Of a stretch of 64,000 nt of DNA, positions 567 through 59,312 are shown in pieces. Every line of letters starts with the position of its first letter. Positions within the stretch are counted from its first letter, which is position 1. A program made the position numbers and the translations under genes. The notes below the pieces were generated by a model. It was not told the origin of the DNA. It searched no databases and worked only from the letters and a program-made list of their open reading frames with translations. Source of the DNA: Branchiostoma lanceolatum (lineage: Eukaryota; Chordata; Leptocardii; Amphioxiformes; Branchiostomatidae); the NCBI RefSeq assembly GCF_035083965.1, contig NC_089726.1, forward strand, positions 12,715,501-12,779,500, in the 5' to 3' direction.

Positions 567-3312
567 GTACATCCAAGGTGCCAGCTCTGCAAAAGATATG
601 ATGATCCTTATTGACAAGTGAGTATATTGTATGTCACATAGTCAGGCTAGTACACTGGTATGATAATCAACCTACCAGGCTCAAGTTAAGAACAGTTACA
701 AACTTTTGTACAAAAAGCCCATACTGTATATTCTTCAGTCACATTACACTACGAAGCTCAGGTTCACGATTTTTTCTTTGTGCTCCAGTCATTGCATGAT
801 CATATGATGTGTAACAGAATCACCAATTGTCACAACCACAATTTAGCATTGTGCTGCTATGTATTTTACTTGATAAACCATCACTGCTATACTAGTCTAG
901 AATAAAAACAACCCTCCCTCTTGTCTTTGCACACATGTACACACACCACTGAACATGTACACTAAAATCAAAGTTGTATATTGACTTCCTAGCTTGTATA
1001 GTTCATTCGACTGGGAATGTGTGACCTTTTGTGACAATACGCCCTGAGACTGTATTACACCAGAACAAGATCAATGCAACATGGAAGATGCAGTCACAGT
1101 GCCTCGTATATTTTGTACCAGTCTTTTGATGTTGGCTGTCACAAGCAAGTTTATGATGCTGAACCATGAATATCTAAAGGACCATACCAACGTGGCCTGT
1201 TTAATAATGGCATTGAAAAGTGAGATGGACACATTTGAGGCACAATCTCAAAGTCTTGTTGAGTGCCTTCTGCGAACCACTAATGATGTATTTGTATATT
1301 GAAACTTTTTTATTTCACCTCTATTGAGCAGATAATCATGAAGTTTAGAATGATAATACCATGCTCCTGTTTGTATGTCACCTTTTGCTCTTTGTCACCT
1401 TCTTGAGTAGTAGTGGAAGTGTCCATGGCCTGACCCTCACTCTTATCAAGAGGTCTGTACAGGAACTACTCAAGACACTGGGAGAAAATGACTTTGTCAA
1501 CATGGCATGGGTTAGTATGAACAACTTTTTACAGACATTGTTCTATTGAACAAAAGATGACATATTTATCTATTTCTTCTTTTTAAAAACTTTTTCCTTG
1601 TTGCTAGAAGAGTTTAAGTTTAACTTCATGAGAAAAAAATATTTTCTCCATGACGCAGGAACCTAATGAATACTGTCTTCCAAAGTTTTCTAATTTTGAT
1701 GATTAGGTTTGACAGACAAACTAAGACACATCTATTACAATATCCATCGCAAGAATTATTAAGTTTTTTCTGTAAATGATGCTTCTTCAAATAAAGCTTA
1801 GGTTTTGTGAATCAGCTCATTGATACCCATTCTTTCCCTCCAGTTCAACACTGAGGCACATTATGTCAGCTGCTTTGACACCTTTGTCCAAGCCAATGTT
1901 CGCAACAAAAAAGTAAGTGTTTGTAATTTACTTAATGACTATTGTCTGATAATTTTTTCCTGTCTCATCTAGAAAATAGACTATATACTTAGTACAATAT
2001 TGGAGTTGGACAGAAAGTTACTGAAAAGTGTAAATCAACTGTTTTCACCATAATCATAGTGTTGGTGACATCATTTAGTATGTGATTTGTAAAATACAAC
2101 AAAAACAGCCTGAATTTAACTGTTACTTCAGTGAAGTTGACCACCTTTTGTATGAGCTATTATGAAATGTTGATGGGACATAGCTGCATTTTGTGAAGGA
2201 CGGCTAAGCTTAAAGTTTAATACGTACCTTCAATGATTTTTTTCAAACAGAAATCACACCATGCAGTCTCAACAACTCAGTTGCCATACAAATCATAAGT
2301 TGTGGAAACTACCTGTTAGGCAGAGCTGAATACTATCATATTTTTTACTTGTATCCCCTCTTTTCTATGCTTTCTATTCTTTCTTCTTTCCATAATTGCT
2401 TCCTCCTGACAATTTTCCTAGATCTTCCTTGATGGTTTAAAACTGATTGAAGCCACTGATCGGCATAATTGGAGTGCTGGCCTAGAATTTGGTTTCAAAC
2501 AATTCCAAAAAGTATGCTCCTTTTTTTCTTTCCTGGTTAGTTCTTACATCTCTAACTTGGTATAACATGAAATATGAATCCATTGTTAGAGTAATTATCT
2601 CACACTTAAAGTGTCTAATTCTAACGAACCTCATGCTAACCCCCAACATTAACAATTGGAGAATCATCCACAATAATTACACATAACAAACTGAATGTCT
2701 TCTCCAGGGGCGTGAAAGCTCTCTGAAAATTGATTGAAGTGATGATATCAAATAGAAGTGTTTAGCTGACTCAAAGCCTGAAGTGAGAGAAGATACACAG
2801 GAGAAGACGTTTTGTTTGTTGAGCTCCTCCATGCATGTGTGTCCTGCATGTTGTGTGTTTGTCCTGAAGGTTCTGGAAGTTGCTGTGTTGGAGATTGGTG
2901 ATGGAAACATGTCTGACTTTGGAAAGGGCTTGGAGTTTGCATTCAGAGCTTTTGACGATGTAAGTCTTGCCTTGCATGTCTATTGATATGGTCCTGAACC
3001 TTACCAAGTGCGGTGAACTGAATGTATGCTAACACTACATGTAACCAGGCCTGTCACAGTGTGATGTGTGTGTCTGTGTGGTGCAGAAATGAAGTGCAGA
3101 CCATTGTGATCATCACGAGCTACACAGATATATGTATCACCAGGGGAATGTGGTGGAAGATACACTCAGATTGTCTATAGTTCACCTTAAGATATAATTT
3201 TTCTGCTCATCTTTGGAATGGTTAAACATAATCTTGTCTTGACTACAGGGGTCTTTTTACCTTTCTTTACTCCAAATATATATAATTTGGGAATTGTACT
3301 TAAGGCAAGGAC

Positions 3313-3346
<34 letters not shown>

Positions 3347-6300
3347 GTATATATATATATATATATTACATGTATGGCATTGTGCACAGTCCAGCTGTTG
3401 ACCTGTGCTGATAGTGCATGAGAGAGAAATAATAAAGGTACTCTCTGATTTCCCTACCAGTTCAATGCTACCCATACCAGCCAGGGTGCCAGGTGTAACA
3501 AGATCATCATGCTTTTTACTGATGGTGGTACCGAGAGACCCGTGGAGGTGTTTGAGAAGTATAACAAGGACAGAGAGGTAAGTCTTACTTCTTGCAGCTA
3601 TAGAAAACAGTTGTGTGTAAATATCACTAAATCAAATTATGTGTGTAAATGGAATTTCCTTGGCAAAACTATACTTGTCAAGTTTTTGATGTTTTGAAAA
3701 TCCAAGGTTTTACCCTGCTTTCAGTGTAAACTGCAACTTTTTATCTCAAAAACAATGATGCCCTTTAAGATTGTAATATTTGTATAAATTGTTCTTTCTT
3801 TCTTTCATTCTTTCTAACATGGTGAGGAACTTATCTGACCCCTTTTGCTACAGATCAGAATATTCACCTATGCAGTTGGTCCTCCTGCTTACTCAACCAG
3901 TGCACTTAAGTGGATGGCATGTGAAAATAAAGGTGTGTGTTAGATGTGCAGGTGTGCCCTCTAACATTCTTTCAATAAAGTGCAACTTTCCAACATAACA
4001 TGGCTTGCTGCTGTTGACACAGCATGACTTTGGCATGGAACTGAATTGCATAATAACAATTCATCAAATGCTAAATGATAATTAAAAGTTATATTCAATT
4101 TTGCTACTATTTATGAAATGATTATGCTGATTTCTCTGGTAAGTTTGCTGGTGCTAACATTTGTTTATGGCATGTTCTTAATATATGGTCTTGTTCTTCA
4201 TTTTTACTGTGAGGAATGACAATAAAGTTTGCTGGAAGTCAGGCATGGCAGTGCTCCCCATATTAAAGCAATTTTGCTGTTTATTCTTAAAACTAATCAA
4301 CTTTGATTAAATGATTGATCTAATATCAGGGGTTTAAACTTGCTATCAAATTAGTTTTAAAAACTTGATTTTTGCATGAAGAGATGATTCTGTAACATCA
4401 ACTTGTCCCAGGGAAAGCTATGATCTCTTTTGCCATATACATTGATCATAAATAAGACACAAATTTAAAGCTCATAATTGGAGAAAATCCATTAAGTGTA
4501 GATTGGAAATTGCTAAATGTTCTTGTGCCAGAAATTATGACTGAAGAGTCAATACTATACAGATGAGCCTTGGCTCTTTTGAATACTAGTACCTCCCCAA
4601 GACCTATTGGATTACAGCTGTTACAGTACCGTAGTTTTATGAAATGAAATGTTCTATAACCTGACTTTGCCCTGGGACAGGAACACATGAAATTTAACAA
4701 CAATCTCTATTGTGCCCATTTCTGTATGACAAAAGCTGATCCTTCTACCATGTACGCTGTAGGTTATTATGTAGACATTCCAGCTGTCGGAGCCATCAGA
4801 CAGAAGACTCAGGTGAGCAGCTGGCTGACTTCTCCACCCCGCACTCTCCTATTTCTCTCCCCGCTCTCCTCTAAGCTGTCTCTCCTTCTGTCTCACCAAT
4901 CAGGTTATTTCTTAGAGATTCCAGCAGTGGGGGCCATAAGACAGCAGACACAGGTGAGGGGAGCTTGACAGGCAGAGGGAACAGCTTGTTTCTCAGGGAC
5001 CTGCCATCAAGTCTCTCCAATTTCGCCCCATTTTTGGAGAGATGAAAAAAAAGTCTAATCTGAGAAAAGTCTGTCACAATTGGTTCAACTACGGCGTACC
5101 ATTCCGCCAAATAGCAGTTCCCGTCAAGCAGCTGGATATGATTTTGGAACGCTTGAGTAACTGCAATTTGGTGTATCTTATTACATGGATCGACATATGG
5201 CATACCATTGTTTGTTTCATTGTGTCAGAGTTGACAAATTTTTGTACCACTAGTCCCAACAAGAAAATTGGCAGAGAAACAAGTGCATGTTTTCTTTGTG
5301 GTTTGTCAAGGCAGGAGGGACTCTAGCTGGGCACATTTGAATGTTCAATGGAAATTTCCACTTGTGATTCAGTAGTTGGTGGATTGGTTATTATGAAGTT
5401 GTGACCCCCAGAAAACCAAGTTCATTGCATTACTTAGCTTTGCAATAGACGCTGCATTGTTGGACCAATACCAATAGACATCAATGCTACAGTCTGAATT
5501 CTGTTCCACATAACACCAGCTTCTGGTGTTCAAATTTGAGTCAACATGGATATTTGACATGATGTAGGGTTTTCATTGTCATAATTTTCTTTTCATCCTT
5601 AAGCGTCATACTTGTGTTGTAAGGCGTAGGTAGCATTGTTGTTCCGGGCCCATATTCCTATTTCTTGCGTTTCACTTCCCTATCACTTACTTTTCATCTC
5701 CTTTCCCTTTCCATTTTGTAACCCTCCCAATTATTTGCGCTGCTGTAGCACCTCTGCCCCCTATGCCACCAGGTAACATAACAAGTGATGCAGGGTGTGA
5801 CCCTCATGTGAATGATGCATGACACATGATGACAGTCTAGTCTATTCATTGTACCAGTGCCTGCTGTCTGCTCATGATCATTATGTTTCATAATGATAAT
5901 TGTTGATAACTTACATGGAGAATCTCCTGGAAAACACACTTTAATACTTAGCTTAAACAATCAGCACTTGGTTAAGTGGCTTTCCAGAAATAATGCATAT
6001 GGTTTGACAAAAGCAGATTGTTGTGTAAAATGTGATGAAACTTGTTGTTTACAATTGTCAGTTGCAAGTAGCACATGATTGTCTTCTTTACATCCATGTA
6101 TCTTCAAGCATCTTCAAGCTATGTTTGTTATATAGAGTTCCCCTACATATTATAGATGGCATCTGATGGCACTTCCATTGGATCCATTTCTATGAGTTGA
6201 CAAAGAGCTGTTGCAGGACACTTTTCTAACAACTCTGTTGTTTGTAGGACTATGTGGCTGTGCTGAGTAGACCTATGGTGTTATCAGAGGAAAAACAGTT

Positions 6301-9300
6301 CATGTGGACAAACATCTACCTGGACGCTATGGTCAGAATTCACTTGATACTATTTTGATAAGTGTTATGCATATACATGTATTTATTTCCATTCTTAGTG
6401 AATCATTATAGCATACTGATTATATATTGTTGATGAGTAGGGGGGCAACATATATAAATTTTCACCTGTTACACTCTTTGGCATTGGTTGATCACTATCT
6501 AGTAAGCAATTAGAGAGAAAGTCTCACTGGACCATTTACTGCAGCAGTAAGTAATGATGTAAGTATTGGATGTAATCAAGTTACATCTTAATAGTATATT
6601 TTATGGTGTGAAACATAACCATAGATGAAGACAACATATAAACAGTTAGCAGCCTCAGTACATGCTTATCTCTGGTGGGATTTTGTGGGTAGTGTAATAT
6701 GTAGTTTGTCTATTGCATTTGCAGTAGTAATTTTCAGTCATTGATAGCATCTGTCAACTTCACAGGTTCATTTACAGGAATGTAACATTTGTAGGCTCTG
6801 TCCAAAGTCCAACTAAATACATTGTACCTGGTAAACCTCTTTGTGTTCCGATTGTAGGGCATGGGCATGATGACAACCATCACTCTTCCTGTCTACAACA
6901 AGTCAGAAGGAGTGAGTAGACTAATTCATTCTCTTTTCTCAAGATAGCCACATAGTCAATCATAGATATGTTAGGAACGTAAAAGGCCACTGTTTGAATA
7001 CATACTATCTACTCGAAGATGTATTCTTGCCACTGGCTGTCAAAATAGTTAGACCTCAGAAGTGAATATAGTATGTAAAGTGAGACTTGTATTGTCTATA
7101 TGTGTGATTTTAGTCCAGTTAATGGTGTGATTGGACAATAAATCTACAAAATGCTACTTATACATAAGTATGCTAAGCCTGTCCTTTTTAGATGGTTCAA
7201 ACTCATCATTTACAACAATTGGCACATCTAAAATTCTATTGAATCAAAAGTCATGTAAGGTTTTTTCTACACAATGGACAGATTGAAAAAAACACCCAAA
7301 ATGTTCAGTTTAACAGTAGTACTTTTATTGTTTCATTCTCAGCAGCCTAAAACTAGCAGACAGAAATGTACTTGTTCTAAACTGTGCATGTTAAATAGTG
7401 TTGGCTGTTCCTTATTTCCTCTTCCATGAAGCAAACAGTGAGTTATGGAAATTCTTATTCCGTAAGTAGCTTGGTGGTAGATGTTGTGTTAGACAGCTGG
7501 CCTTGTTACTGTGGTAAGGTCTCTGGTCTGTGGCTGACTGTATGTATCTGTGACCACTTGTCCTGATGGTAAGTGTCCTGTGTGCCTTTCTGAGATGTGA
7601 TGCAGTGATGTGGTGGCTGTACTGCGCTTGCAGCAATGTCAAATAAGTCTAGAGCTCAGTCATGTTCTTTCCCTGGCAATGCCAGAGTATTGTTAGATGT
7701 GGTCACACAATTTAATACTTGTAAACTTCCATCCAATTGATGTTGTAGGATTTAGTATAATGCAAGTTAAAAGGAAGCACATGTACATAGGGGTTAAACA
7801 TCTGAATGTCATCGCTAAGTGTCGGTGACCAACTTAAACTAATGCAGCTAGCAGTGTAATGTATCTATAGTTTTCTAAAAACTGAGTTTTCCTAATAATG
7901 TATGTGATATATTTTGATCAAGTTTTCCCCAACAATGTCACTTTCTTTCAGAACCATTAATAAAGGGCAGCAGCATCATTAAATTTTGAATGTGTTTTAT
8001 AAAGTGTCTCTGACACAGTAGGATACCATTTGTGCAATGTTGGAGGGGCATACATCAAGCACCAAACGTACTTTGCAAATGGGGAAAGGAAAACTAACTT
8101 TATGTCAAAGTTTGTAATGACAAATATACAGAAATTTCTTATCATATATTTGATTGTTTGTATCTCAGTTTATTTTTGTGTGAATTTGTCACCATACCGG
8201 TACAACTGAAGATCAGAAAGTACTAAATGTTTTGTACATACATGTATGTATTCCTTTGATCATTTCCATTTAGAATCGTATGTATCATTTACTTCCTTCT
8301 GTATAAAATGTAACATTATTTCTTTATTAGACAGTTAAAGATACAAGGTAGCTATAAAATGTGTTTGAACCCCAAAATATTGACATGAACCCCAAAATAT
8401 TGACAGTTGAACTTTGTATTCAGCTATTTCATTTTTCTATCCTATTCCTACATTTGTATATCAGTCTGCTGCAGGGAATTCAAATTTTGTGTATTGCGAG
8501 TTTGATGATGTCATTAACCTTAAGCACTCTGAAGTAACCTTTTGGCACCCAATTCCCTACTGGTTACAGAGTTAGGCAGCAAGGAGAAGGTTACAAAAAC
8601 TACTTTTGTCCTTACACCTGTACAGAGTTGAATTGTCCTGTAGTTAGACACTTTCCTGTAATTTCTATGAAACATGTTTATCTTGGTGTGCATATTAGAG
8701 CCAGGAGATTCTAGGAGTAATGGGCACGGACATCACCCTGGCACAGATCACTAAATTCAACCCCAACAGGGAGGTAAAAACATGCTCCTTCTTATCTAGT
8801 AGCATTATGTAAGCACTTCTTCTTATCGAATAGTATTATGATAAGTTAAGCATTTTTGTTTTACATCTTGCTGGGCCACATTTTTCTGTTTTTCTGATAG
8901 TCCACATCTATCAATTAACATAACTTCAAAGTAATGGTACTGATACATCTTCCAGATTTGTCATGTGCACTGTTTGCAATATAGGTTAACACTTGTACAG
9001 ACAGTCTGGGTCACAAGAACTGGCTCTGAGGAGCACATTGGTCATACTACAGAATAATGTAGTGTTGGAGAGTTCACATGAATTATTGGAAAACTCCATT
9101 GTTACTACAGCCATACTTTCAGCACCAAGGAGAAGCCCTGTGAACATAGGAAATAGCTGCTAGGCATATCCCAGTCTTTTGCTTGTGATTCAAGCAAACA
9201 AATATTTGAAATGCAAAATTAAAATTTCTAAACCTAAGTGTGAGTGCAGAATTACATGCCTTTCCAAGGGATTCCTTTTATTGGTAAAGTTACTATTTTT

Positions 9301-12300
9301 TCTAATTTTTTAGGATGCTGATGACTTTCTGTTTTGCAGGTTGGACCCACTGGGTATACCTTTGCCATCAACCCCAATGGCTACATACTCTTCCATCCCA
9401 GTCTCAAAAGCCAGGTGAGGGTGCACACCTGACATTGATACATTACATAATCCTGAAATGTGGCCCACTTGTCTTATTTTATTGTTTTAAAAGACTGCCT
9501 GTGGTAGTGTGCTGTGATGAACAGGATGAATGGCAGGATTGTACTAAATCATTAAATTAATGACATTTCATTGAAGTTAAAGGTCAAAGTGTGTTTTATT
9601 GGAGATGTGTTGTTGCTATATAAAATACAGCACAAACATAGAGTCAACAGCATTTAGATATGTGTCCTTCTGAGCCAGCTCTGTTCTGAGCTAGAAAGGA
9701 CAGCATTAACAAAGAAATTAGTATCAATTTATAAAGGCTAGCTACTGAAAAGAGTAAACAAAATTAACTGAAGAGAGTAAACAAAATTAACTGAAGAGAG
9801 TAAAAACTAACAGCATTAACTTGTAAATCAACAATGGAACAGAGGTCCATGTAATTAAACCTTGTTTGATATCCTTATGATATTACCCTTTTCTGTATTA
9901 TCTATGTTCCATTTTGTCCTGTCTCCAAATGGAATAGTTCTGTTTTGTTGCCCCAAGTTTCATAACTCATCAGTCGTAGTTCATTTTTGTTGTTACAGGA
10001 GCAAACTTATACATCGGTAAGTTTTCCAGCAATGTTGTCTCAGTTCACTAATTAATTTTGAGCCATTTATTTGCCCCACAAATTAGTTTTAACAAGCTTG
10101 TGCATTTTATCCGGCCTGTTGAAAACAATAACGCAGTTTGCAGTAATCATATTTCTTTCACACATTCAAGAAACTTTTTCATTTCATCAGCTTATTTTCA
10201 TAACGCTTTTAAAATTTATGTTTTATCTTAATGCATAGTGCATTGCATGCTTTACACATTTGCATTCATTTTCAGTTTTCTGAGAAAGCACTGCTTGAGT
10301 ATAGGGTGAGTCTGCCTGGACCTTGATGTGGTGATGATCTAACCAAATCAGGAACTGATGACACCTCACTGATTTCAGTTGATTTCCACAGGAATAACAC
10401 AGTTTAACAAATCTGAACTAACACTTAAGATTGTGATAATCATTGATTTTGCTGTGAGATGATCTAATGAATGACTAGCAGCTGACTGATATGTATTGAT
10501 TTGACAAGTAATAGATTGAACTTCCCTGATAATCAATAATTGTGATAACAAATGATGTTGTTGTGACACTGTTGTGACCTCTATGTGTATGCAAATCACC
10601 AACAACTAACACCTTATTGATTTCAATTAATTTCTAAATGAATTATACAGATCAACCTTACCAATCACAACTAACAGTTGGAAGTGTCTTACTAATCATG
10701 TCCGCTTTTGGATGGAAACTTTGATTGAGACTTACTTTATATTCAGTGTGTCTATGCCATTTAGTAGTTTCACAACATGTTCACTGTACCTAGTACTATT
10801 AGTGCTGTATTTGGGAAATGATTGGGAGTAGTCCAAAGTCCTTGTTTGCTGTGTTTCAAGTTTAAATGGACAATGTTTGTGTATGCGAGTGTATGTATGC
10901 ACACAGCACATGTGGTGTTTGTCTGATAGGAGCAATTATTAAAAAATTATTTTCAAAAAAAGGGACAACTTGCTTCCTTCGCACCCATCTTGTCTAAGAC
11001 AAGCCAGTGCAAGGAAAGTCAGCAGTTCTTTTGTCCTTACACCTTCTGCACCAGCCTTTTTTCCAACATGGATTATAGATGTAGTGATAATTAATGTCAA
11101 CTGAAACAACACTCATCAAAGCTGATGGAGGGAGAAGAGATTCTGTTGAATATCTTTTTTCTGCTTCATAGTTCATTTACAAACATGGGGCTCTTTGCCA
11201 AAATTTTTGTCCAATATTTATATAATAGATCAAGATTTTACAAATCGAACATTGATCATGGAATCAATCTCAGCCCTTTTCCTTTAACATGCCAGAGGCA
11301 CCTCTTTGAACACAGGATCCCCATTTTATGTCCCTTCTGAAAGATGGGTGCAGCCCCAACCAAGGTACCCTTCCCAGGGTCAAGAAAGGATTGTTGTAAA
11401 AAGAAAACCATGTAACTACACAAAACATGTATTTAGAAAATTTATAGGTCATATTTGTTCTTTTCAGCTGGGTTACCTGTCGGAACCACCTAATGTTGAT
11501 TTCCTTGAGGTGGAACCAGACAATCCCAGTAAGGAAGACGTGAGTATGAGAGAACATCTTAAGCCATTATGCAGCTGGACTACTTCTTCACAACACCTTT
11601 AGGCTTTGATATGATCCTGAATGTATTGTTTTCTGTTCTTGTGGGCTGCCCTACTATAATGCCACCAGCATGTATCGTCATTTTCATGCATTTGTACTGT
11701 AATCAAGGATGATATGTTTTTAGACAACTTTTCTGTAACTATACTAAAAAGTTCACTCAGATATTTACAATTTAGAGAAAGCCTAGAACATGTATGAGTA
11801 CATTTTTGGGATCAATGCGATTCCCTGTAATTCATTCTATGCCTCCAGGTTAGGAAAAAGATGATTGATCGTGATTCAGGAGCAGTGACTATAGAGACTT
11901 TTGTCAGGTCACAAGATGAGGTGAGACATTTTGTATTCATTGCAAGGCTAGGTTAGTCACTAGTTAGTTGTAACAGACATTTTTAGGTCATAGGGTTCAG
12001 TGTTGTGTGATCATAGAAAATAACAGGTAGAGAAGTATCCATTGTACGGATAATAGCTGATACATGTATTAGTTTAATGAAATGAAATACAAGTAGTCCT
12101 AATTTAACTCTCATGACAAGTATTCATATAATCCTATTTTCTGTGTTTTAGTCAGAATGTTGTCTTGCATGAGGTAGTTTGTTTGACATGCATGCTTGTC
12201 TGTTCACAGAGATACGTGGACCTTGTGAACAGGACATACATCTACGGTCCCATGAACAGCACCATATTCAGGTAGGCAGTCTATGCTTGCCTTGCACTAA

Positions 12301-15300
12301 TGCATGGGTGAAATCCTGAGCTAACTCCTGGTAATTTTTCCCCAGTACCTTTGCAGCATATGTGTTGTCCAGGATGTGAAGGCACAGACCCCGGCAGCGT
12401 CCCCTGTGCATGGCTGAAACCGGCTGGTGTAGGCAACCTACGTGTCGTCAGTGGAAGTGTTGTGTGCCCATGACCCCTTCCCTTTAGCCCCAAAATTCTT
12501 GTCAGAATAGGCCCCACTGTTGTCACCCCTCTAAGACAGTGCTACCCTGTAGAGATGCTGCGACTGGCATCCCTGTTCCTAAAAATTGTCAGCTGTGAAC
12601 TCTGTGATTTGCTGCATGTCTCAGTTCCCTTAGATTTAGTCCCTTGCATGTTTGGCATAATAAACTAAAAAAGAGAAGTGTCCGTGGTGACCCTCCCCAA
12701 TAGACGGTGAGCTAAAAGAATTGACTTGTATTTTGTTCTCATCTCTACCATTTTAAAATGCCATTAATTTGCAATGAACATCAACGGCAAAGAGGGATAT
12801 GTAGGTATGTACACAAGTCATTAGACTTTAACCTGCTCTCAGAGCTGAGGCTGTTTCAGGAGGGACCACTGAATAATGGTATAAGATTTCATGTCTAAAA
12901 TCACCTGTCGTGTCCCATAGTTTTCTCATCATACATGACTAAGGCTCCTCCTGAAATAGCCTCTCATGTCCCAAAGAACACAATCCAAACTCTGATCCCA
13001 AAAGTAGTGGCATTAAAGCCCAATTCTATCTCAGCCTAACAGTTTCTTTTCACTTTGTTTTGGATTCTTACCCTGGTAGAACTTTATCCTTGCCAAGCCC
13101 ATTGATGCTGACGTTGCTGTAGTGGTGTGTCCCCATTAAATCCATGTTTGCTTGTTTTGGAAAATAAATAAGTAGGTTCTATTATCAGTTTATGTACTGT
13201 GTCCATCTCAATGTATTCCCTTGCTAAATAAATGTCTGTGGTCCCTGCCTGAACCTCACCTTAACTGTGTCTATAAGTTCTAACCAAAGTCTGTCACCCA
13301 TAGTTGTAGGCAAAACAGACTGATGCTCTTATAAATACTGTTATCTGAATCAGATGTAGCACATATCTTGATCTTATCTTATTGAAACACAAATGTTGAC
13401 AATGAGAAGCATCTTTAGTCCAACTTCATGGTACAGCTGTCACTCTAGATCAACCAAGATGTAACTCAGAGATGTTTATTGGACAGATATACATGTATTA
13501 AACATAGTTTTGACAGAGAAGCTAGTACTTCAGATTACATTGCGCTCTCCCTATATATAGATACAATTTGTAAATGTATTCACTGATATAATGGATTTTA
13601 GGTGTATTTGCTTGCATGGGATCACACTCTGGTTTTTGTGCATGTGTGTGCTGTGTGTGCAAACTTATAGTAAAGTTTGTATTTTTGATATTTCTGAGAG
13701 ATTTATTGTATTTCACAAAGCATAGAACTGGACATGTTTCTATATTGTACATGTCGGTGCCTTTATCAATATGGTTTTACCACTCAAGACTTAGTCATAT
13801 CAATCTTAGACCATTTTTCTAGCAATAGTTGCCTGGACATGCTGATTATTAATGTCAATGATAGAGTTGATGTACCCAACGTTAATTCCTGTGTATCAAG
13901 GAAGAACTTGTTAGACAATGTTGTTATATGATCCTGTTTTGCAAGGCTTTACCTTGACTTTGTGCATTTAATGGTAATGATTGCAGATATTGATTTTAAA
14001 TCAAACAGCAGAATTTCATGACATTGATGTCCCATATCTATTGATGTCAAGGCTATTTTTCCTCAATGTGTGTATAATTTGAAGAAAAAACATAATTCTG
14101 AAAGTTAGGATTGCATCCCTATTGATGTTCTCTGTACACTTCTGATCAGAAATGATCTACATTGTAGAAAGCAACCAGGTTAAAGAAGGACATTCTAGAA
14201 ATCTGCTCCAATGGAGGTCCTGGTCTATTCCTCTCAAATATGCACAATGTATTGGCATTGCAGATGCATGTTGGGCTCAAAATACCATGCATTCAATGAC
14301 ATTTGAGCTGAATGTCAGACAAAAGAATGTTTTTTTACCACATATTCAACCAGGGCAAAACTGTATTTCATTAGTCCCTTTAGCCTTGTAACTTTCTCAG
14401 CCATGTCCAGATTTTAGAATGTGAATTAATCATGACTTTCAATTTAACTTTGCAGCCTTGGATTGGTGCTGCCAGAGTATAGACAGAAGAGGATAGAAGT
14501 AGAGAACATTGACATACCAACAGGTAGAGAGTACTTATAGAAAAGCCTTCAAAAAATCTCTCCAATAACTAGGGAAGGGAAGAGCATGTTCGGCGAATGT
14601 TCATGAGGCCTATTTTGTGATGCATATGCTTGGTTTCATAATTCTCTATCAGAATCATTGTGGCAGACCATTTTTATCAGTACGTTATAAGTAAGTTAGA
14701 TTACAGGGGGTGTATTCTTCATAAAATTTCTGCTGATTTCTTGTGGTGCTGAAAAATTTCTGCACATGAACTCGATATGCAGCAATGGAATTCTGGTCTC
14801 CATAAACTTCAGTACTGTTGGCTGTCTTTTATCCAGGTCGTGATTACTTACAAACACAGCGCTCTGCACTCTTCATTGCACCATGGTAAGTGTTAAGACT
14901 TCACCTTCCTCACACCCACTGCACATCACAGTCTCCTATTAATAGCACCTCAATTAAGGCACTTGAATGTTTAATTCTCTACAATGGCATGTGTTTTCCT
15001 GGAAGTAGAAGAATCTGATGATGGTTACAAGTAGAAATAATGAAATGCACTGAATTTCTCCCAGTATCTTCTGTGTGCCCGAGAGCAATAACTTAGACTT
15101 AAAACTTGAGCTAATATTGAAGGAATCTATGCCTGTCTGTGAAATGCTCACTTGTCTAATAATTCTGTTGTCTGCAGGCAGTTCTGTGATGATGTCCTGA
15201 CAAATGCCAGCCATGCTGACTTCCTGCAGGACATCTTGGAAAAACTGAGTGGCTTTGACTTCCCAACTGAATGTTAGTGGCTGGTTTCTTTGTATAATGT

Positions 15301-18300
15301 TTCCATTAATGAACTGCCGTTATTGTCATTGTAGAAGTGGTATTAGAATGTGCTCAATAGATTTCTCTTTAATTTCACTGCTTTTTAAAATTGAGTGAAG
15401 ATTATGGATACTGCAGTTACTGTGTAGGTCATTGATTACTGCAACTGTTCTGCCACGTTGATGACAGGTAATGAGCCCAAGCTGAAGCACTTGTTACTTG
15501 ACACTGTTGTCACCGAGAGCCTGGCAGAATTTTGGAACAACAAAGCTGTAGACTTCAAGAGGTAACAAGAAGAACTGTTTGCAACACACATGTGACACTT
15601 TGATTTGTTGTATCTGCTTATACACGTCTTCTTTGTTTTGAATCATTTGTTACTCTGTTTGTACGTTGTACGGTGTCACTGTAATCTGTGGTTAATTGTT
15701 TTGTATACAAAGTACACGACTTTGTACATAATTTTGGTGTTTGTTTCTGTCATTGTGATGTCTTAGTTCTGTATGTTGATTTTTTTGTTTTGCTTGCAGT
15801 CAAGACCTTGACTCATGCAGTGTTACTGGTAATGCATGTAATGCTACATGTAGCAATGCTCGATTTAATTCAAGGTATGTTTTAAACAATAGCATACTTG
15901 AATTATTTTGTGTGCTACCTGTTATAGGAAAAAGTAGCAACAAGTAAACATGTACCCTTCTGTAAACAGTTGTTGTTCTTTGAATACTCTTATCTGATTA
16001 AAAGAAAGGTGCTAAAAAGATCATACTTATAGAACCTCCCGATTTTTCATCCCTTTTCCTAACATTTCCCTCCACAACATTGTTTTAGTTAACTTTACCC
16101 AATGATATTTGTTTTTGTACAATTGTTTCCCAGTTTGGGTCTTTACAGTCACAGTCATTGTTTTTCGCTTTTCCACAGTGATGGCATCGTGGCGACTTTT
16201 GTATCAACAGAAGGTGGAATCACAAGGGTCTTCCCAGAGAGGTGAGACAAAAATCTAGATACTATCCAGTGTTCAGGTTTTGTTCTACAGTCCCTTCATG
16301 TTGAACAGTCTTTAGATTCCCATTTTAAACTATTAAGACTTTAGCACCTTTGGAAAAGCCATACTGAAACTGTGTTTTGTTGTCTCCAGTGAATGTCAAG
16401 ACTTTGAAGACAGGAGGGACACTTGGCAGCAGACCTTCTTCAGGAGATCTTTGGACAATGATTACTTCATCTACTCAGTGCCTTACAATTCTTGTAAGAT
16501 GCAATGTTATTTTGACAACTCACAGGAATTGCTATATTGTGATGAATGGCCAGAAAAGAATAGATTGGGAGTACTGGAGATGTTTAACCTTAATTCAAAG
16601 CACTCTGAGCAACTTTCTATGGTACTGCAGTGTGACTTCCGATTTTGATATCTCGTGTTCTAAAAATGCGAAGGTCTTGTTTTATTAGTAGTAGATAGCT
16701 ATTGAAAGAGAGAATAAGTCATATATGTTTGGGCCCCCTATGGCTTTTTTTGAACTGCAGGAGCTGATTTTGTTTTAAAATTTTGAGAGAGAATAAGTCA
16801 AAAAGGGGTAAATGGATCCTCATGATTTTTGGTATATAGATAGCTTAATGTATGATTTACATAATCATATACTAATCATGCATGTAATGAGCTAATTAAT
16901 GAGATTAGCTTATAAATCTGTTGCATTCCATAATAGGACTCTCAAACACATGACATATGTAACTCAGAAATAGAGAAATATCGATAGATATGAATCATGC
17001 AAATGAATACCTAATTTACATGATTAATGACAACATACTTTAAACCCATTGTGGTTAATGATGGGAATTCCATTCTTGCAGCATTTGGAAATTAAGTAAA
17101 TGTGAACATTATCGAACATAAATCATACAAATGAGGTCCTCATTTACCTAATTTATGAGGAAATGCTACAATAGCATTCTTTGCTAAGATAACTTTGAAC
17201 AACAATGTGTTATTTGATAGAGAAAGTTATCAACTGCTGTAATCTCTGCATGTCCTTATTTGCATGTGGGCTATAAGCTACAAAAGCACTAACAGACCTC
17301 CGTCGCCATGGTAACATCTTTTTATGTTGCCAATCTTGTTATATACAGTCATGTAAATGTTGCATCTATGAGGTCCAGAAGGGCAAGCATTTGTTCTTTA
17401 TATAGTGGACAGTTCATTGTTGTCATATCACAATCTATGTTGACTGCAAAATCAAGTGAAATAGTGAAAGTGTGATTGGGGTTGACTGACTCCTTTCATG
17501 CTGTCTAAATACTACACTACAGATAGGGATCCAATGAAGAGACTTACTAATTCCCTCCCCAGACCACCAGAACTGGCCAGTGAATTACACCATCATGGCC
17601 ACCTCATCTGTCACTCTGAACGACATGGGCGGCATCAAACCAGCAGGTATCACCATTATCTCATTATCTACTTCATTTCATGAAATTGTACTATAATTTG
17701 CAATCAGTACAATGCTTCTTTCTGCCTTGACTGAATTACATCTTTTTCCTTTTACAGTTGTTGGAGTAAAGCTTGACCCAGAAATCATTTTGGGCACCAT
17801 GTTGCACATCACAGATCAGGTACAGAATTAATGTTCTTGAAAGCATATTTTCTTTGTAAGCAGTCTTCTCACTTAAGGGTCCTTTGGAGAGGGTTGTGGG
17901 GTGCATGGCTGTTATGTACCCACATTACAACATGATGCAGACTGCAGCTGTAAGTGTGTCACAAATGGCAATTTTTGCATCAAAGATTCTGATGACAAGT
18001 AACAAACAAATGGTGAAAAAGGACAGTAGCCAATGTCCATGCTGTGTGATGGTGACAATATCTGTTGTGTGTGTCTGTCTGGCTCCATTTACTTTTAGTT
18101 ACTAACTGTAAAATTGCTATCCCATTTACTATATATAGTGTCCTGGGGGACCATCCTGCTCAGATGTTAGCAGGAGTTGCAGAGATAGTGAGGTAAGTCT
18201 TGATACTCGTCATCTGTCAGTGACATTTATAGCTAAGTATATTTGTGAAGGTAAACATTCTGCATTTGCTCGTAAATGTTACCTTTCTAGAAAAAAATAT

Positions 18301-21300
18301 TTGTAGCAACTTGACTGTCGATTCAGTGCCAGGAATACCTGCCTAAAGGTTCATTTTATCAGGATGACCAAACTGTTTTTCTGCCCCAGAATCTCCTCTG
18401 TGTCCTGCTGGATGATGGTGGGTTCATTGTCACCACTAATCAAGATGAACAAGTGGGAGATGTAAGTGAGGATCAACAGACAACTGTGTTGTAGATGTTA
18501 CATTGCTTTTCTTCTTCACCACATGTCTCCTCAGTCATTCTATCTCTTTATTGGTACTGGTCCACAGATCAAGTATGTAAAGCAATCTTTTTGGGTCTCA
18601 TAATGTTGTATCTTAATACTGTTGATAAGTCAAATATGTGTATACTTTAAGGACATCACATGCGTCTCCAATCCCATTATCTTTGGGAAGGTAATTATCC
18701 CCTATACTACTAGAGTGTAGAATGAGTTTGGCTCATAGTTTTCTGTGGGTATTTGACATTAGGATGATAAAGTATTCTACCCTTTGTCTTAGGTTGGCAG
18801 GTTCTTTGGTGAAGTAGATGGGCACCTGATGAGGGAGTTGTACAATCGGAGTGTATACAGGAGGTTTGTAACATGCATGTTTTGTTAGTCCTTTGTATTT
18901 GGTTGCTGCTACATCTGATAAAGTGCTCTAAGTACCAAAAAACTTTGCAAACAGCTACATGAAGACGTATTTTGGCTTTACATCAGGATTTCATCACCAA
19001 ACCTATGATTTTTATACTTTCACTACCCAACAGATACAAGGTTTTATTGCTTTTCAATCCTGCAGAGTGACACTTCATTTTCCATGAGTTATTGTGATCA
19101 CAACGTTCTGCACCACTTGAAATTGATTTTGGTCCCATAAAAGAAGATACGAGTATCATCTGACATATCAACGTGTCACAAATCATCACATCTCACATAT
19201 ATTACACCTTATGTTACAGGGAGGAGGCATATGACTTTCAGGCCTCATGTAAAAAAGAACAACCCAAAGTTGCCAGTGCAGGATCCAGGGTATCTTTTGT
19301 GGTGAGTTTAACTGAGCCTCCTGTAGATGATGGTGTCAATCGATAAAGATGAGATAGGGTTGTACACCAAGCATTGCGGATTTCATACTTTTTTAGAAGC
19401 CACCATGTAATCATGGTTACTGTGCACTTCGTATATTCTATATTGATGCAAATACCTGTTTCATAATCTAGCAAGTGCAGTGATATGGTGTAATAGTATG
19501 AGCTTTGGTAGTAGATCAATCAATTGATCAAATTACTATTCATGGTTCTTTTCTAACTAGGTAAAATTATGTGTAACCCCCTTAGCCAAGACTGAACCTT
19601 GCAGATGCTCTCAACCTTCAGTGGTGGACTACCAATGCAGCATGGTTTGCCCTTTTTCTGTACACACTGTCAATAACTCAAATCGTAGTGTCCATAGCAT
19701 TCCTTTTACTTATTCGCAATAAGTTTCTCCTTCCAACCATTTCTTGAGGGTCAATTTACTTGTACAATGTACTGTAGAAAAACATGTGGTAATGGAGTGG
19801 GAAAGCTTGTTGAATTATTTTTCATCTCAAAGATTTTAAAGAATTCCCATTGATTGGAGTGTATCCCAGTTCAATAAAAAACAATGATGATTCTGTGCTC
19901 ATGTAACCTTGAGTAATTCCCATGATAGATCTACCATACCATGAAGAATACATCATTCTTTTTTCTCTTCCTTTGCAGGGCATACCTACAGCAGAATGTC
20001 TATGGGTAATTTGTTTAGACTTATAATTACTTTTGTTGGTTGCTATTGAGATGATTACTTTATGACCATTATGATACATACTGCTTCTACTTCTTATTTG
20101 CAGCATGTTTCAGGCTAGTAATATTTTGAATATTCAATAACTTATATCATATTCTCTAAAGTCTAAGCTGGTGGAAAGTATCTCGATGTGAAATACTTTC
20201 AGCACCAAGGTCATGAATGGTTATCTTTCTTATCAAATGAGTTATAATTATACATGACTTCTTGATCAATGTTGGATTTTATGATTAACTCTTACCATGT
20301 ATGTCTGTTTCTATCCCATAGGATTCTGTTCTCAACAAGCTCAAGTAAGTACAAATGACAATGCATTTTGGTGAAATAAAGGATATCACATTTGAAGCAG
20401 TCAACAAATTAAGATATTTTCAGCCCTTTCCTTTTTAATTTTCTTACTGCTTGATTTCCCCCTAGCCATGGCTGAGGAGTTGGGGGAAGAGGGGAGCATA
20501 GATGAGAATGTGAGCTGTGTCAGGTTGCAGCATGAGTACTATCTTGGGCCAGAGGTTCAACTCTATTGGTCTGCTGACTGTGGAAACTGCTCCAGGTACA
20601 TACAGGCTTCTTTTGTATCCTTTCCAATAGATTTGCTGACTCCACATTTATCAAATGTGACAATTCTGACATTTGATGTTTTGAGTATATTTTACTAATT
20701 TTTAGTGCTTTTGTCTGTGTTACAGAACAATGACTGCACGGCAGCTGAGGTACAGCAACCTGCTGCTGGTAGTGGCTGATCCATTATGCAACAGCTGTAA
20801 CAACACACCTGTCATCCAGGAACCACAGAAGAATATCCTTCAACTTTGTGGCAGAATACTTTTGCTGTCATTTTGCTTTATGTGCCGTCCACTTCCTTGT
20901 GACATTTCAGTGGAGACAAACCAAGTCCTGGGATAAGACAACAGTTGCAAGTATCACGGAGGGCTAAATTGTAATGAAACTTATCATTTGGATATTTTCC
21001 CTGGAACTGGGGCCTTTTTAAGTTGATGACATACAATCATGATATCTGTTGTTGTTATTACCTTAACACTGTTACCAAATAATCCAGATCAGTGCACTGT
21101 AACACCAAGGTACAGGAGAGGCCCAGAAAAGTGTTATGACCACCATAAAGATGTAAGTACATGACATTGTGTAATCTGTATTAGTGGTGTCTTTCAGCAC
21201 TGTTGGAAAAAGTGAGTATAAACAATGCCAAAAAAATACTTTCACAAGACAGTGTAGTATGTCTAGACAGAATGTCGTCAGAAACATTGTCATCAACATC

Positions 21301-21546
21301 TTTTATGGTCGTTTGTTTGTTTGTTTGTTTGAAGCAGTACTAGGAAATGTGAACTTCCAGGCTATAACATTTTGTTTTTTACAAACTAGATACTACTAGA
21401 TCAAATGATGGTGAGAGTTATTTTTCTTTATCCAGGAGGACGCCAGTCACTGCGGGGCAGCAGCTTTGGCAGCACCATCACTGTTTGCAACAAGTATCCA
21501 GTTGAGCTTCCTCCTCTTCATCATGAAGCTGTTTGGTGCCACATGA
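567..21546 (+). CDS. CACNA2D: Voltage-gated calcium channel alpha2/delta subunit, 5'-truncated by the window edge
   Basis: Auxiliary, extracellular, membrane-anchored subunit that promotes surface delivery of Cav1/Cav2 channels. I joined 36 exons with correct splice borders and matching phases; they give 866 residues without a stop. Order: end of the VWA_N region, VWA with metal site (LIDNSGSV, then LFTDGGTE), Cache-like VGCC_alpha2 region ([35 protein letters not shown]), the tryptophan-rich stretch near the alpha2/delta cleavage region (WWTTNAAW), the Cys-rich delta part ([19 protein letters not shown]) and a hydrophobic C-terminal tail for membrane or GPI anchoring, stop at 21544-21546. 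Motifs resemble vertebrate alpha2/delta-1 and -2 more than -3 or -4. Signal peptide and VWA_N exons lie left of the window. Exon coordinates are in the block entries below. Exons chosen: 2422 or 2870, and 4763 or 4904. Family certain; exact paralogy open. Confidence 0.95.
2422..2511 (+). other. CACNA2D: Alternative exon 4a of alpha2/delta (VWA)
   Basis: 90-nt exon, phase 0 on both sides, between ag at 2420-2421 and gt at 2512. It encodes 30 residues ([13 protein letters not shown]..., ending [11 protein letters not shown]) that align with the human alpha2/delta-1 stretch ending KGITDYKKGFSFAFEQLLN. The residue facing the MIDAS threonine is histidine (DRHNWSAG). Confidence 0.85.
2870..2959 (+). 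other. CACNA2D: Alternative exon 4b of alpha2/delta (VWA), tandem duplicate of 4a
   Basis: 90-nt exon, phase 0-0, acceptor ag at 2868-2869 and donor gtaagt at 2960. It encodes 30 residues ([20 protein letters not shown], then [10 protein letters not shown]) homologous to exon 4a. Here the MIDAS position is serine followed by aspartate (MSDFGKG), close to the vertebrate ITDYKKG. Same length and phase as 4a, 358 nt downstream, so mutually exclusive use is likely. Confidence 0.85.
3312..3367. repeat. (AT)n microsatellite
   Basis: About 55 nt of alternating AT interrupted by one acgt, inside the alpha2/delta intron after exon 4b. Apparent ORFs across it are artefacts. Confidence 0.95.
4763..4812 (+). 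other. CACNA2D: Alternative exon 7a of alpha2/delta
   Basis: 50-nt exon entering in phase 1 and leaving in phase 0; encodes [17 protein letters not shown] with the first G split. Matches the human alpha2/delta-1 GYYYEIPSIGAIRINTQ segment at the end of the VWA domain. Donor gtgagc. Confidence 0.85.
4904..4953 (+). other. CACNA2D: Alternative exon 7b of alpha2/delta, tandem duplicate of 7a
   Basis: 50-nt exon, same phases, 91 nt after 7a; encodes [17 protein letters not shown]. The upstream tract is pyrimidine-rich and ends in cag; donor gtgagg. Including both copies would add 100 nt and break the frame, so only one can be used in a productive transcript. Confidence 0.85.
8366..8405. repeat. 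Direct tandem duplication of 20 nt
   Basis: The unit tgaaccccaaaatattgaca occurs twice back to back, in an intron of the alpha2/delta gene. Confidence 0.9.
8531..8593 (+). repeat. Dispersed repeat, copy 1
   Basis: About 63 nt containing tttggcacccaatt and gttaggcagc. A second copy with roughly ten differences lies at 55271-55333 in a CEP41 intron. Short, so probably a fragment of an old mobile element. Confidence 0.75.
9752..9805. repeat. Short tandem repeat, 24-nt unit
   Basis: Two to three copies of a unit containing gagtaaacaaaattaactga, in an alpha2/delta intron. Confidence 0.85.
9999..10305 (+). other. CACNA2D: Two microexons (18 and 30 nt) of alpha2/delta
   Basis: 9999-10016 encodes EQTYTS (donor gtaagt) and 10276-10305 encodes [10 protein letters not shown] (donor gtgagt). 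Both are phase 0-0, so each can be skipped without a frameshift. They fall where mammalian CACNA2D1 has alternatively spliced small exons, after the HPNL/HPSL motif. Tissue-specific inclusion is an inference. Confidence 0.8.
12290..12675. repeat. GC-richer intronic patch, possible inserted element
   Basis: Within the 2.2-kb intron after 12271 the base composition rises clearly, then falls back after a run ending aataaactaaaaaag. I find no coding match or inverted ends. It could be an old retroposed element or a noncoding exon; identity unknown. Confidence 0.3.
15800..15874 (+). other. CACNA2D: 75-nt Cys-rich exon of alpha2/delta
   Basis: Phase 2-2 exon encoding [18 protein letters not shown] plus seven residues, with three cysteines and NAT and NSS N-glycosylation sequons. 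Vertebrate alpha2/delta-1 has no matching segment at this point. Skipping it keeps the frame and gives a join ([16 protein letters not shown]) close to the vertebrate length, so it is probably a cassette or a lineage insertion. Confidence 0.75.
16700..17280. repeat. AT-rich interspersed repeat in an alpha2/delta intron
   Basis: Contains repeated phrases of the type caaatgaggtcct and catttacctaatttatgag, similar to caaatgaggaccttgtttgc at 58848-58869. Both look like members of one dispersed family; ends could not be defined by eye. Confidence 0.4.
20833..21075 (+). other. CACNA2D: U12-type AT-AC intron in the alpha2/delta gene
   Basis: Intron of 243 nt starting atatccttca and ending gttac. 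The 5' site fits the minor-spliceosome ATATCCTT consensus and a perfect branch motif ccttaac lies at 21061-21067, about ten nt before the 3' end. Using these borders joins VIQEPQK to [16 protein letters not shown] in frame, matching the vertebrate IQAEQTSDGPNPC region. No GT-AG alternative restores this alignment. Confidence 0.88.
21311..21331. repeat. (GTTT)n microsatellite
   Basis: Five uninterrupted GTTT units in the 3' UTR region. Confidence 0.9.
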
Positions 21547-25039: not shown

Positions 25040-27856
25040 TTACAGGGAGTTGTCCTGCACAATGCCATACAAGTTCCACACTCGAAGGGTTGCGTCTGCA
25101 TGACCTGTCACCATTCTCCTGGAGCCTGGAAAGAGTCCAGGGTAAAACTTGATCAACATAGAGCAACATCTAAATCAAACTCATTGTAAAATGTAGCATC
25201 ATAAGATTAATTATCATAATTCTAATTTATAAGCAGAAAACACATTACATTTCTTTATTACTATGGACCATATAAACAGTATTTTGCAAAACTTAACATT
25301 TGCCCTAGGTAGCAGCATTGACAAAGTGTATCTAAAAACTTTAAGGGCTACATCAAAAATTGTTGGTAAAGCTACTACATACAGAATTTAAGAAGGTAGG
25401 TTTGGTCCAACTGTGCTCACATACCTGACATCCTGGAGAAGTCCATACACTTGATGGCACCAAATCCACAGGGGTCTGCCAGCTTCCATGCTGACTTGAT
25501 GGGGTTCTCATCCACATTATAAATCAGGATATGTTCCGACTTCCCACCTACACACAGCCTGGAGCCATCGGGCGTGTACAGGACTCGGGAGGCCTCATAG
25601 CCTGGAGGGAGTAAAACATCCTATGTCTGTCCTTGGTGCTGAATTTCTATTAGGAATGTCACTGCTAGGAGTAAGCAATCCTACAACTTATTTTTTTTCT
25701 ATTTGCCTTTGGGCAGAGACAATGACAACGTGGTACTGCACTCAATGACTTATTCTAGCAGTGTCACATACAGAACAATGAGCTTGATGAAGTAAGAGGC
25801 CGTAGGGTCAGTGCGTTATGTCTAGGGCATGGTATTGGAAGGCAGAACCCATCCCTCTCCTTCCACTGCCTTTTACCTACCCATACTAAATCAGGTACCC
25901 ATTTTACACCTGGGTGGAGTGAGGAAAGACATGTTAAGTGCCTTTCTCAAGGGCACAACGTCAGTGGCATGTCAGGGGATTTGAACCCGGGACCTCTGGG
26001 TTCTGGACCAAACACCTTAATTACATCAACACGACTTGTTTCTATACTCAACATGGAAATTGGACTCACCCACAGTGAACATGTGCAAGACTTTCCCTGT
26101 CCCTAGATCCCACACCTTGACTGTTCCATCATGTGAGGCTGTGGCGATCTGGATGTCTCTGTTAGCTGTCCTGCGCATGGAGGCATCCTGCACATCTGTG
26201 GGGCCGGACCATTTCAGTGTGCGCACCAGCTGAAAAAAAGGTGTTTTTGTTGTCCAAAGTTATTTCTAAGTTGGCCTCATTAAATTGCTTTTTTCTCTTT
26301 CTTTCAGCAGCCAACTCAGGACTCTTTTTATAAATCAAAACAGTATCTTGATACTTGAGTAAAATAAAGAAAAGCAGAGAAATACACTGTACATGTACTT
26401 GTTCTAAATGCCTCAATTTGACACATAAAACTAGAGATTGGTAATATGCTGTCTCTAGAGATATCACAAATCAATTTAAAAACCCTAGCTGGAGCACAAG
26501 AGCAACATCATGCCTATGCCTTGTATAACTCACACCTTCAAGTTGTTTGTCTCCAATACATATGTGACACCATCAGAGCAGCATGCTGTCAGCAGCTTTC
26601 CATCCTCAGACATGCTGGTCTTGTAGATGGTTTCCTCTCCTGCACACATTTTTAACATTGAATACTAACATGCAAGATACAATGAGCTTGCAGTTCAACC
26701 AATGCAATTCAGATGTAATAAAGGGAGCCACTGCATTTGGCAATACACAGGAAGTATTGAAATACCTTAAATCACAAAACTGCATTAATTGTTGTTCGTT
26801 TGCAACAGAAGAACTGTGTGACCAGAAAGTTCAAAGGTAACAAAAGTTACCCACAGACCTTATACTGTTTTAGGCAAGTCTGTTTTAGAGTTGGCATATC
26901 CTTCCGGGTTTACATAAGATAAGCCTACCAAAGTGTTCTTTGAGCAGCTCCTGCCTGGTCATCTGTTGTGTGTTGACATCCCAGACACAGATGCCATCAC
27001 TCCAGCCCGAGGACAGCAGCAGGGTGTTAGACGGGTGGAAATGGACATTACGGATGGTGCTGGTATGGCCCTGTAGTTGGACTGGCTCTGGAGCCTCAGT
27101 ATTTATGTTTGTGACCAGGAGAATGTCAGAAGAGGTGGAGCCTGGATGGAAATAATAAAACTTCAGTTGATTACTTGTGGCAGTCCTATCAATTTTGATG
27201 GGTAGTATTCACAAAGAGCCCTCCTTCATAGATGTTTGTAAAAAAATCTGTTAGTACAAAATATAATCAAAAGTTCATCCATCCATCCATCCATTCATTC
27301 ATTAATGACAAATGTTCATTTCTACCGCCTGGTAAGCATGGAAAAGAATCAATATATCAAATACCTTCAAAGATTTGAAGAACAGAAAAGGAGCACCCTT
27401 ACCTGCAACGACTCTGCTTCCATCCCTGGAGAAGTCTGTGCAGGTCCCAGCACCTCCCAGGTCAAAGGAGTGGGGGAAACTCTGTGTGTTCTCTTTGCAG
27501 ATGCGCATTTTGTTTTCCGTACTGGTGGTCACTGCTATAAAGTTATCATCCTAACAGACACGATCAACAAGGAGGCTCAGTGCACGTGACGATTTTCTTT
27601 CCTGATTTAAACCTTCGAAAGTTCAACTTTAGATATTACTTCATTTATTCCAACTTTACTTTTATTCTACTTTATTCACCGCTTCCGAATAAATTCTTAC
27701 ATCTTGGATTCTTTTCAAAGAATATAAAGTGGTGAGAATGTTTTTAAGTGGAACAAAGTTTGTCACCTGTGGGTTGTAGGCACAGCTCCAAACCTCGCTG
27801 TTGGGCTTGACGGTAGCCAGTGCCTCCGACAAGGAAATACGCTGCACCAGGGCCAT
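25040..27856 (-). CDS. WD40-repeat (beta-propeller) protein, 325 residues
   Basis: Seven exons on the minus strand: 27767-27856, 27403-27550, 26929-27141, 26536-26639, 26070-26229, 25425-25601, 25040-25125, all with GT-AG borders and phases that chain, giving 978 nt including the stop. Start ATG at 27856 (MALVQRISLSEALATVKP). I count seven blades, for example GHTSTIRNVHFHPSN, LLLSSGWSDGICVWDVNT, IATASHDGTVKVWDLGTG, YTPDGSRLCVGGKSEHILIY and VTGHADATLRVWNLYG, enough for one closed propeller with no extra domain. WD40 proteins are usually scaffolds; nothing here fixes the partner or pathway, and I do not recognise the orthologue. Head-to-head with porcupine, about 1 kb apart. Confidence 0.9.
25800..26035 (-). 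mobile_element. tRNA-derived SINE-like element
   Basis: Read on the minus strand it starts with a tRNA-like head holding a Pol III B box (gggttcaaatccc, plus coordinates 25976-25988), followed by the body phrases gaaaggcacttaac and acccaggtgtaaaatgggta, typical of metazoan SINE conserved central domains. It sits in the WD40 gene intron 25602-26069. Family name not assigned; left end approximate. Confidence 0.6.
27275..27303. repeat. (CATC)n/(CATT)n microsatellite
   Basis: Run of atcc units turning into attc units, in a WD40 gene intron. Confidence 0.9.
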
Positions 27857-58935: not shown

Positions 58936-59312
58936 TTGCATTTGTGATCCTCTCATCCCCAACATCTTTTGTTCTGAACTCTCGCATTAGATTTGGGGTC
59001 TCCAGAGAACGTCATCCACATAATTACTTTAGTGTGGCTGTATATCAAGAAGCATCATTACAGGTTTGCGATAGCAAAACCTGTTCTGTTTTTGCATCCA
59101 AGGATGGGGGCCGCCATGTTGGATGTGACCATTTTATTGGGAGGGTTTTTTTGTCGCTAATGTTGGGTGTGACTATTTTGACGGAGGGGTGTTTTTCTTG
59201 CTAGTTTTCTTTTTTTTTGTGTTCTTGCTAATTTTTTTCTTGCTGTGGGTTGAGTGTGACCATGTTTACTGGAGGGATGTGTTTTTCACTAATGTGTGGG
59301 TGTGATAGATGG

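Follow-up and report, generated by a model that had tools for sequence, protein, structure and literature searches.

In the present study, the forward strand of a 64,000-nt stretch of DNA from Branchiostoma lanceolatum (the window) was found to carry the 3' part of a CaV alpha2delta subunit gene (CACNA2D), in which two adjacent exons, 4a and 4b, encode divergent versions of the same segment of the VWA domain, such that one of the five MIDAS ligand positions is occupied by His (4a) or Ser (4b). The account that we regard as probable, with considerable room for doubt, is that of an alpha2delta-1/2-type gene in which the exon bearing the MIDAS Thr position was duplicated in tandem long ago and in which the alternative use of its two copies changes the grip on the metal, a second such pair, 7a and 7b, being present a short distance downstream.

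Gene identity and exon layout

The initial annotation had assigned the locus to the alpha2delta family, and this assignment held. When exons 1-9 were joined and compared with PDB entries by phmmer, alpha2delta-1 chains were matched with an E value of 8.6e-81 by the isoform containing 4b and 7a and of 1.7e-79 by that containing 4a and 7b, and the Pfam VWA domain was recovered in both (52.6 and 47.1 bits, respectively, at a cut-off of 23.8). The VWA homology is followed, in the same gene, by the rest of alpha2 and by delta up to the C-terminus: a tblastn chain with an approximate human alpha2delta-1 sequence as the query runs colinearly over residues 244-1091 between positions 568 and 21516, several of its matches being weak. 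The N-terminal exons lie beyond the window. In the VWA region, the form with 4b and 7a is identical to alpha2delta-1 at 131 of 223 positions and to alpha2delta-2 at 125 of 223, as against 93 of 214 for alpha2delta-3 and 80 of 201 for alpha2delta-4, the comparison sequences of alpha2delta-2, -3, and -4 being approximate. Judged by these similarities, the gene is CACNA2D of the alpha2delta-1/2 type. Its exons, which are numbered here from the first one in the window, are as follows.

567..617, + strand: exon 1 (own numbering, not the gene's first), with the MIDAS Asp (D259 equivalent) at 613-615; from splice borders, alignment, and codon
1411..1510, + strand: exon 2, with the MIDAS Ser residues (S261 and S263 equivalents) at 1412-1414 and 1418-1420
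1844..1912, + strand: exon 3, the upstream exon to which 4a or 4b would be joined; from splice borders and alignment
2422..2511, + strand: exon 4a, 90 nt, phase 0-0, with His at the T331 position (2464-2466)
2870..2959, + strand: exon 4b, 90 nt, phase 0-0, with Ser at the T331 position (2912-2914)
3461..3577, + strand: exon 5, with the MIDAS Asp (D363 equivalent) at 3521-3523
3854..3932, + strand: exon 6, the upstream exon to which 7a or 7b would be joined; from splice borders and alignment
4763..4812, + strand: exon 7a, 50 nt; from splice borders, tblastn, and homologue scan
4904..4953, + strand: exon 7b, 50 nt; from splice borders, tblastn, and homologue scan
6248..6331, + strand: exon 8; from splice borders and alignment
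6858..6911, + strand: exon 9, with its 3' border taken directly from the letters (GGA, then gtgagt)
8699..21516, + strand: remaining downstream alpha2delta exons with approximate borders, colinear with residues 481-1091; from tblastn with the approximate query, some matches weak

Homology of exons 4a and 4b

The coordinates, 90-nt lengths, phase 0-0, and GT-AG borders first given for exons 4a and 4b were all correct when checked against the sequence, and the proposal that they encode homologous versions of one VWA segment was borne out by phmmer, in which both align without gaps on residues 317-346 of alpha2delta-1. This 30-residue block is flanked by the conserved motif VQANVRNKK and by a conserved 12-residue stretch, the nearest gap falling inside exon 5. 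The two copies are identical at only 7 of the 30 residues and differ at the other 23, and this divergence suggests that the duplication is old.

Homology was assessed by ungapped BLOSUM62 scoring of the 26,611 open 30-codon segments found in six frames. Against exon 4 of alpha2delta-1, exon 4a scores 29 (mean of all segments -28.6, sd 11.1), and a score of at least 29 is reached only by 4a and 4b; the score between the two copies is 24, a level reached against 4b by 4a and 4b alone. Among 100,000 shuffles of 4a, the corresponding p values were 1e-5 against alpha2delta-1 and 1.5e-4 against 4b. When the scores against alpha2delta-1 and alpha2delta-2 were averaged, the latter from an approximate sequence, 4a ranked first (34.5) and 4b second (31.5), followed by a segment at 14.5. 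A chance resemblance of 4a was rejected on the basis of its place among the top two of the 26,611 segments and of the shuffles; the raw similarity between 4a and 4b, taken alone, is modest. The homology of the pair rests mainly on the common match of both copies to vertebrate exon 4. Since 4b is nearer to exon 4 of alpha2delta-1 (41 versus 29 for 4a) and 4a is nearer to that of alpha2delta-2 (40 versus 22 for 4b, approximate sequence), neither copy can be named as the original.

Normalised scores were also obtained for splice-flanked candidates of the same length, in a scan that covered eight of the ten peptides of exons 1-8 and 1143 candidate rows. The 4a-4b level of 0.15 was equalled by three unrelated segments (16, 16, and 23 residues) and the 4a-to-human value of 0.19 was exceeded by two (16 and 23 residues), none of which lies near its exon. 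Two + strand candidates of the same length lie no more than 1600 nt from 4a, and 4b is one of them.

Residues at the MIDAS

Five MIDAS ligands of alpha2delta-1, namely, D259, S261, S263, T331, and D363, are given in the available text of PMC6231325. In the present gene, the DxSxS motif is present as DNSGS, encoded by exons 1-2, and the Asp at the 363 position is present in the FTDGG of exon 5, which lies outside both exon pairs. Codon 15 of the duplicated exon aligns with residue 331 and reads CAT (His) in 4a and TCT (Ser) in 4b. The canonical Thr is in neither copy; the Ser of 4b is a conservative replacement in which the hydroxyl is kept. Since the other four ligands are encoded by common exons, the fourth ligand alone is exchanged between the two forms. 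The initial annotation had located the exchange at a Thr-Asp position, of which the first half stands, the MIDAS Thr (T331) being within the exon and appearing as Ser or His, and the second does not, because the following Asp (332) is absent from the list of ligands.

The reading that one gene makes metal-competent and metal-deficient isoforms is too strong: four of the five ligands lie outside the pair, and alpha2delta-3 and -4, which lack one MIDAS ligand, still raise currents, as described in the available part of PMC5043047. Regarding the effect of such changes, mutations of the MIDAS in alpha2delta-1 and -2 abolish the increase in current (PMC6231325, PMC5043047, available parts), and the D122A substitution in CaV2.2 abolishes the effect of alpha2delta-3 and likewise that of alpha2delta-1 (PMC6231325). 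The effect on surface expression is smaller for alpha2delta-3 than for alpha2delta-1, according to PMC5092059. In I domains, the MIDAS Thr touches the metal in the open state only; one VWA receptor cannot bind its ligand without this Thr, and a close relative can (PMC1762376, in part). Since the loss of one ligand is not equivalent to a dead site in these reports, a graded difference between the isoforms is predicted, with a near-canonical MIDAS in the 4b form and a weaker or different one in the 4a form. An imperfect MIDAS is not in itself unusual in invertebrates, since both stj and stol of Drosophila have imperfect motifs (PMC7426832, available text).

Splicing and reading frame

Mutually exclusive exons can be predicted from adjacency, equal length, and equal phase (PMC3228551, in part), and both pairs in the window show these properties together with GT-AG borders, at 90 and 90 nt in phase 0-0 for 4a/4b and at 50 and 50 nt in the same phase for 7a/7b. 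Based on this exon structure and the usual behavior of such pairs, 4a and 4b are most likely used one per mRNA. The reading frame does not force exclusivity in this pair: transcripts with both exons or with neither stay open, the former gaining 30 additional VWA residues and the latter losing 30. The introns around the pair measure 509 nt (3-4a), 358 nt (4a-4b), and 501 nt (4b-5).

The splice sites of 4a are middling, the acceptor ranking in the 79th percentile of the AG dinucleotides in positions 1-22500 and the donor in the 93rd percentile of the GT dinucleotides there, by approximate consensus weights. Comparable values were obtained for exon 2 (80th and 91st), the acceptors of exon 1 (68th) and exon 7a (81st), and the donor of exon 8 (93rd).

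An exclusion mechanism based on RNA structure, with docking and selector sequences, was considered and rejected, as it received no support from pairing or folding tests. Five intron pairs were compared with 60 shuffles each, using up to 500 nt per intron and the 4b-5 intron as far as position 3300, short of its TA repeat. Pairing of the introns around 4a/4b was no better than that of shuffles (z +1.23, +0.44, and +1.56), and intron 6 with the 7a-7b intron showed no excess over shuffles either (z +1.06). Intron 6 with the 7b-8 intron gave z -1.87, with three of 60 shuffles as good, which is not convincing among five tests. The fold of the 4a-4b intron is also ordinary (z -0.98, 14 of 100 shuffles as good).

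Two features of the introns on either side of 4b were recorded separately. The 4a-4b intron contains a 21-nt inverted repeat (2685-2705 and 2800-2820) with 86% complementarity and 94 nt between its arms, which alone folds at -26.3 kcal/mol and occurs only once in the window, and the 4b-5 intron contains a (TA)26 microsatellite at 3314-3366.

A second duplicated pair, 7a and 7b

The initial annotation had described a single exon pair; 4a/4b is indeed present, and it is accompanied in the same gene by a second tandem duplicate that went unmentioned, consisting of exons 7a and 7b. These encode 17-residue peptides, the first Gly of which is shared with exon 6, and are identical at 13 of 17 residues. 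Inclusion of both 7a and 7b, or of neither, shifts the frame into stops, and a full protein is therefore obtained only when a transcript contains one of the two and not the other. Neither exon encodes any of the five listed MIDAS ligands. As to a possible exclusion of 7a/7b through the branch point, the 91-nt intron between them carries a CTGAC motif at position +16 relative to the donor of 7a, but an AG intervenes approximately 30 nt before 7b. Judging from the exon structure, the two pairs would allow four isoforms.

The scan for splice-flanked homologues of the same length, which covered exons 1-8, recovered 7a and 7b reciprocally. Among the best two candidates for each of the ten exon peptides, the only neighboring homologues were the partners within 4a/4b and 7a/7b; the best candidate for exon 5 was also a neighbor, but its score was below zero. 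A tblastn comparison of 28 exon peptides with positions 1-22500 yielded one further weak copy on the + strand, of exon 12 (9907-9945, E 0.013), which was rejected as a second exon because an AG-flanked start is missing from its open frame.

Other features in the window

Elsewhere in the window, a long single open frame of 492 codons is present on the + strand at 42097-43575, with a marginal Pfam match to BBS2_Mid and sub-threshold matches to Itfg2 and FG-GAP; we take it to be kaptin-like. The minus strand carries several open frames between 36703 and 41839 for similar-looking cysteine-rich proteins with Thr/Pro linkers; both of the two that were scanned match Pfam VWC2L_C, one of them below the cut-off, and the group looks like a local tandem family. 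A piece of a WD40 repeat protein lies at 26915-27085 on the minus strand (Pfam WD40, 31.8 bits, cut-off 27), and a tandem array of a 334-nt unit occupies 59271-60527 (3.8 copies, 94% matches).

Discussion

In the mechanism that we propose, the exon encoding the VWA segment that contains the MIDAS Thr loop and the sequence after it was duplicated in tandem long ago. Exons 4a and 4b would then be spliced as alternatives, one per mRNA, with DxSxS and the distal Asp being supplied by other exons in either case, such that exon choice would set the fourth ligand to Ser (4b, hydroxyl kept) or His (4a, hydroxyl lost); 22 further differences in the 30-residue segment would accompany this change. We infer that both forms fold and that they differ in function. 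The 4b isoform would be expected to grip the aspartate of the first domain-I loop of CaV alpha1 by way of the metal, in the manner of vertebrate alpha2delta-1/2. The 4a isoform would be expected to bind this aspartate with an altered or weaker dependence on the metal, and to differ in surface expression or in channel preference while remaining a working subunit. Exons 7a/7b, close downstream, would serve as a second alternative pair and bring the number of combinations to four. A more specific idea, to which we assign very little credence, is that the His of 4a together with the Asp-Ser-Ser-Asp of the common exons forms a site that is suited to a transition metal (Zn2+) or is pH-sensitive, such that the metal at the alpha2delta-CaV joint would depend on which exon is used. 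If this were true, splicing would let a single gene produce two kinds of channel coupler, one Mg/Ca-dependent and the other Zn- or proton-sensitive, in addition to the 7a/7b swap.

It is also conceivable, if unlikely, that 4a and 4b are real alternative exons in which the change at the MIDAS is incidental, the pair tuning the VWA surface for different partners, CaV alpha1 subunits or others, and the metal being little affected by whether the residue is Ser or His. The extent of the divergence, which involves 23 of 30 residues rather than one, is consistent with this possibility, as is the duplication of 7a/7b in spite of their having no listed ligand; moreover, alpha2delta-3, with one ligand missing, acts via the same channel aspartate (PMC6231325, in part), and one VWA receptor binds its ligand without needing the MIDAS Thr, although a close relative does need it (PMC1762376, in part). 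However, the changed position is one of the five ligands at the main channel-contact site, and the function of alpha2delta-1/-2 is abolished when the MIDAS is mutated (available parts of PMC6231325 and PMC5043047).

Two other explanations concern the splicing itself. A history in which 4a is a relic, rarely or never spliced in, and 4b is the sole functional copy would suit the middling splice sites of 4a, its low identity to 4b (7/30), and the loss of the MIDAS hydroxyl, but 4a is open, has the same length and phase as 4b, and retains GT-AG borders. Although alpha2delta-1 favors 4b, the good match that 4a keeps to alpha2delta-2 (approximate sequence) is not expected of a relic so diverged, and we regard this history as improbable. 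The inclusion of 4a and 4b together, or their use as ordinary cassette exons with no clean swap, is compatible with the reading frame, which is not interrupted whether both exons are included or both are skipped, and the 358-nt intron between them is presumably spliceable; we consider it very improbable, because 30 residues would be gained or lost in a compact VWA domain that is otherwise gapless against alpha2delta-1 up to exon 5, at a presumed cost to folding. The reading that we prefer continues to be the alternative use of 4a and 4b with a consequence at the MIDAS.

The alpha2delta family is the target of gabapentinoid drugs. Work on the role of its MIDAS in delivering CaV channels to the membrane has so far relied on mutants and on comparisons between paralogues, whose differences extend over much of the protein; natural isoforms identical outside one 30-residue exon, with one of five metal ligands changed, would, if confirmed, constitute a clean evolutionary experiment. 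None of the matches listed in a limited search of openly licensed literature described an alpha2delta gene with duplicated VWA exons, and the term CACNA2D is absent from the main text of a survey of human mutually exclusive exons (PMC5740500). Among viral and prokaryote contigs, 8 and 32 pattern matches were obtained, respectively, and none was confirmed as a relative. Alternative exons that swap ion ligands are already known, as are perfect and imperfect MIDAS motifs in separate vertebrate genes (PMC5043047, in part); what appears to be new, in that no report was found in this limited search, is the duplication of VWA exons that would swap a MIDAS ligand within one alpha2delta gene.

Tandem duplicated mutually exclusive exons are a familiar arrangement, with CACNA1C as an example. 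The exons described here resemble them in being adjacent, homologous, and equal in length and phase, whereas their use one per mRNA is predicted. A close parallel is NALCN, exons 15 and 31 of which swap residues of the selectivity filter by alternative splicing in many invertebrates, vertebrates keeping one form (PMC3557258, in part). In both cases, the alternative exons of one channel gene exchange ion-coordinating residues; however, NALCN involves a pore filter and measured transcripts, whereas the present case concerns a protein-binding metal site in an auxiliary subunit, with a predicted exon choice. In alpha-actinin-1 (Actn1 NM/SM), exon choice yields an EF hand that binds Ca2+ or one without Ca2+ ligands (PMC5062968, available text); that system differs from ours in the protein and the metal motif, and its regulated splicing is established. 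The alpha2delta-3 and -4 paralogues presumably have Gly at the T331 position, whereas 4a has His. Vertebrate alpha2delta-1/-2 and -3/-4 offer a close likeness, being of the same family and differing at the same VWA site by one ligand outside an intact DxSxS motif (available parts of PMC6231325 and PMC5043047). In vertebrates, the difference is distributed over separate genes, whereas it is found here in the exons of one gene of the -1/-2 type, and, if the proposed alternative use is true, splicing in this gene does what separate genes do in vertebrates.
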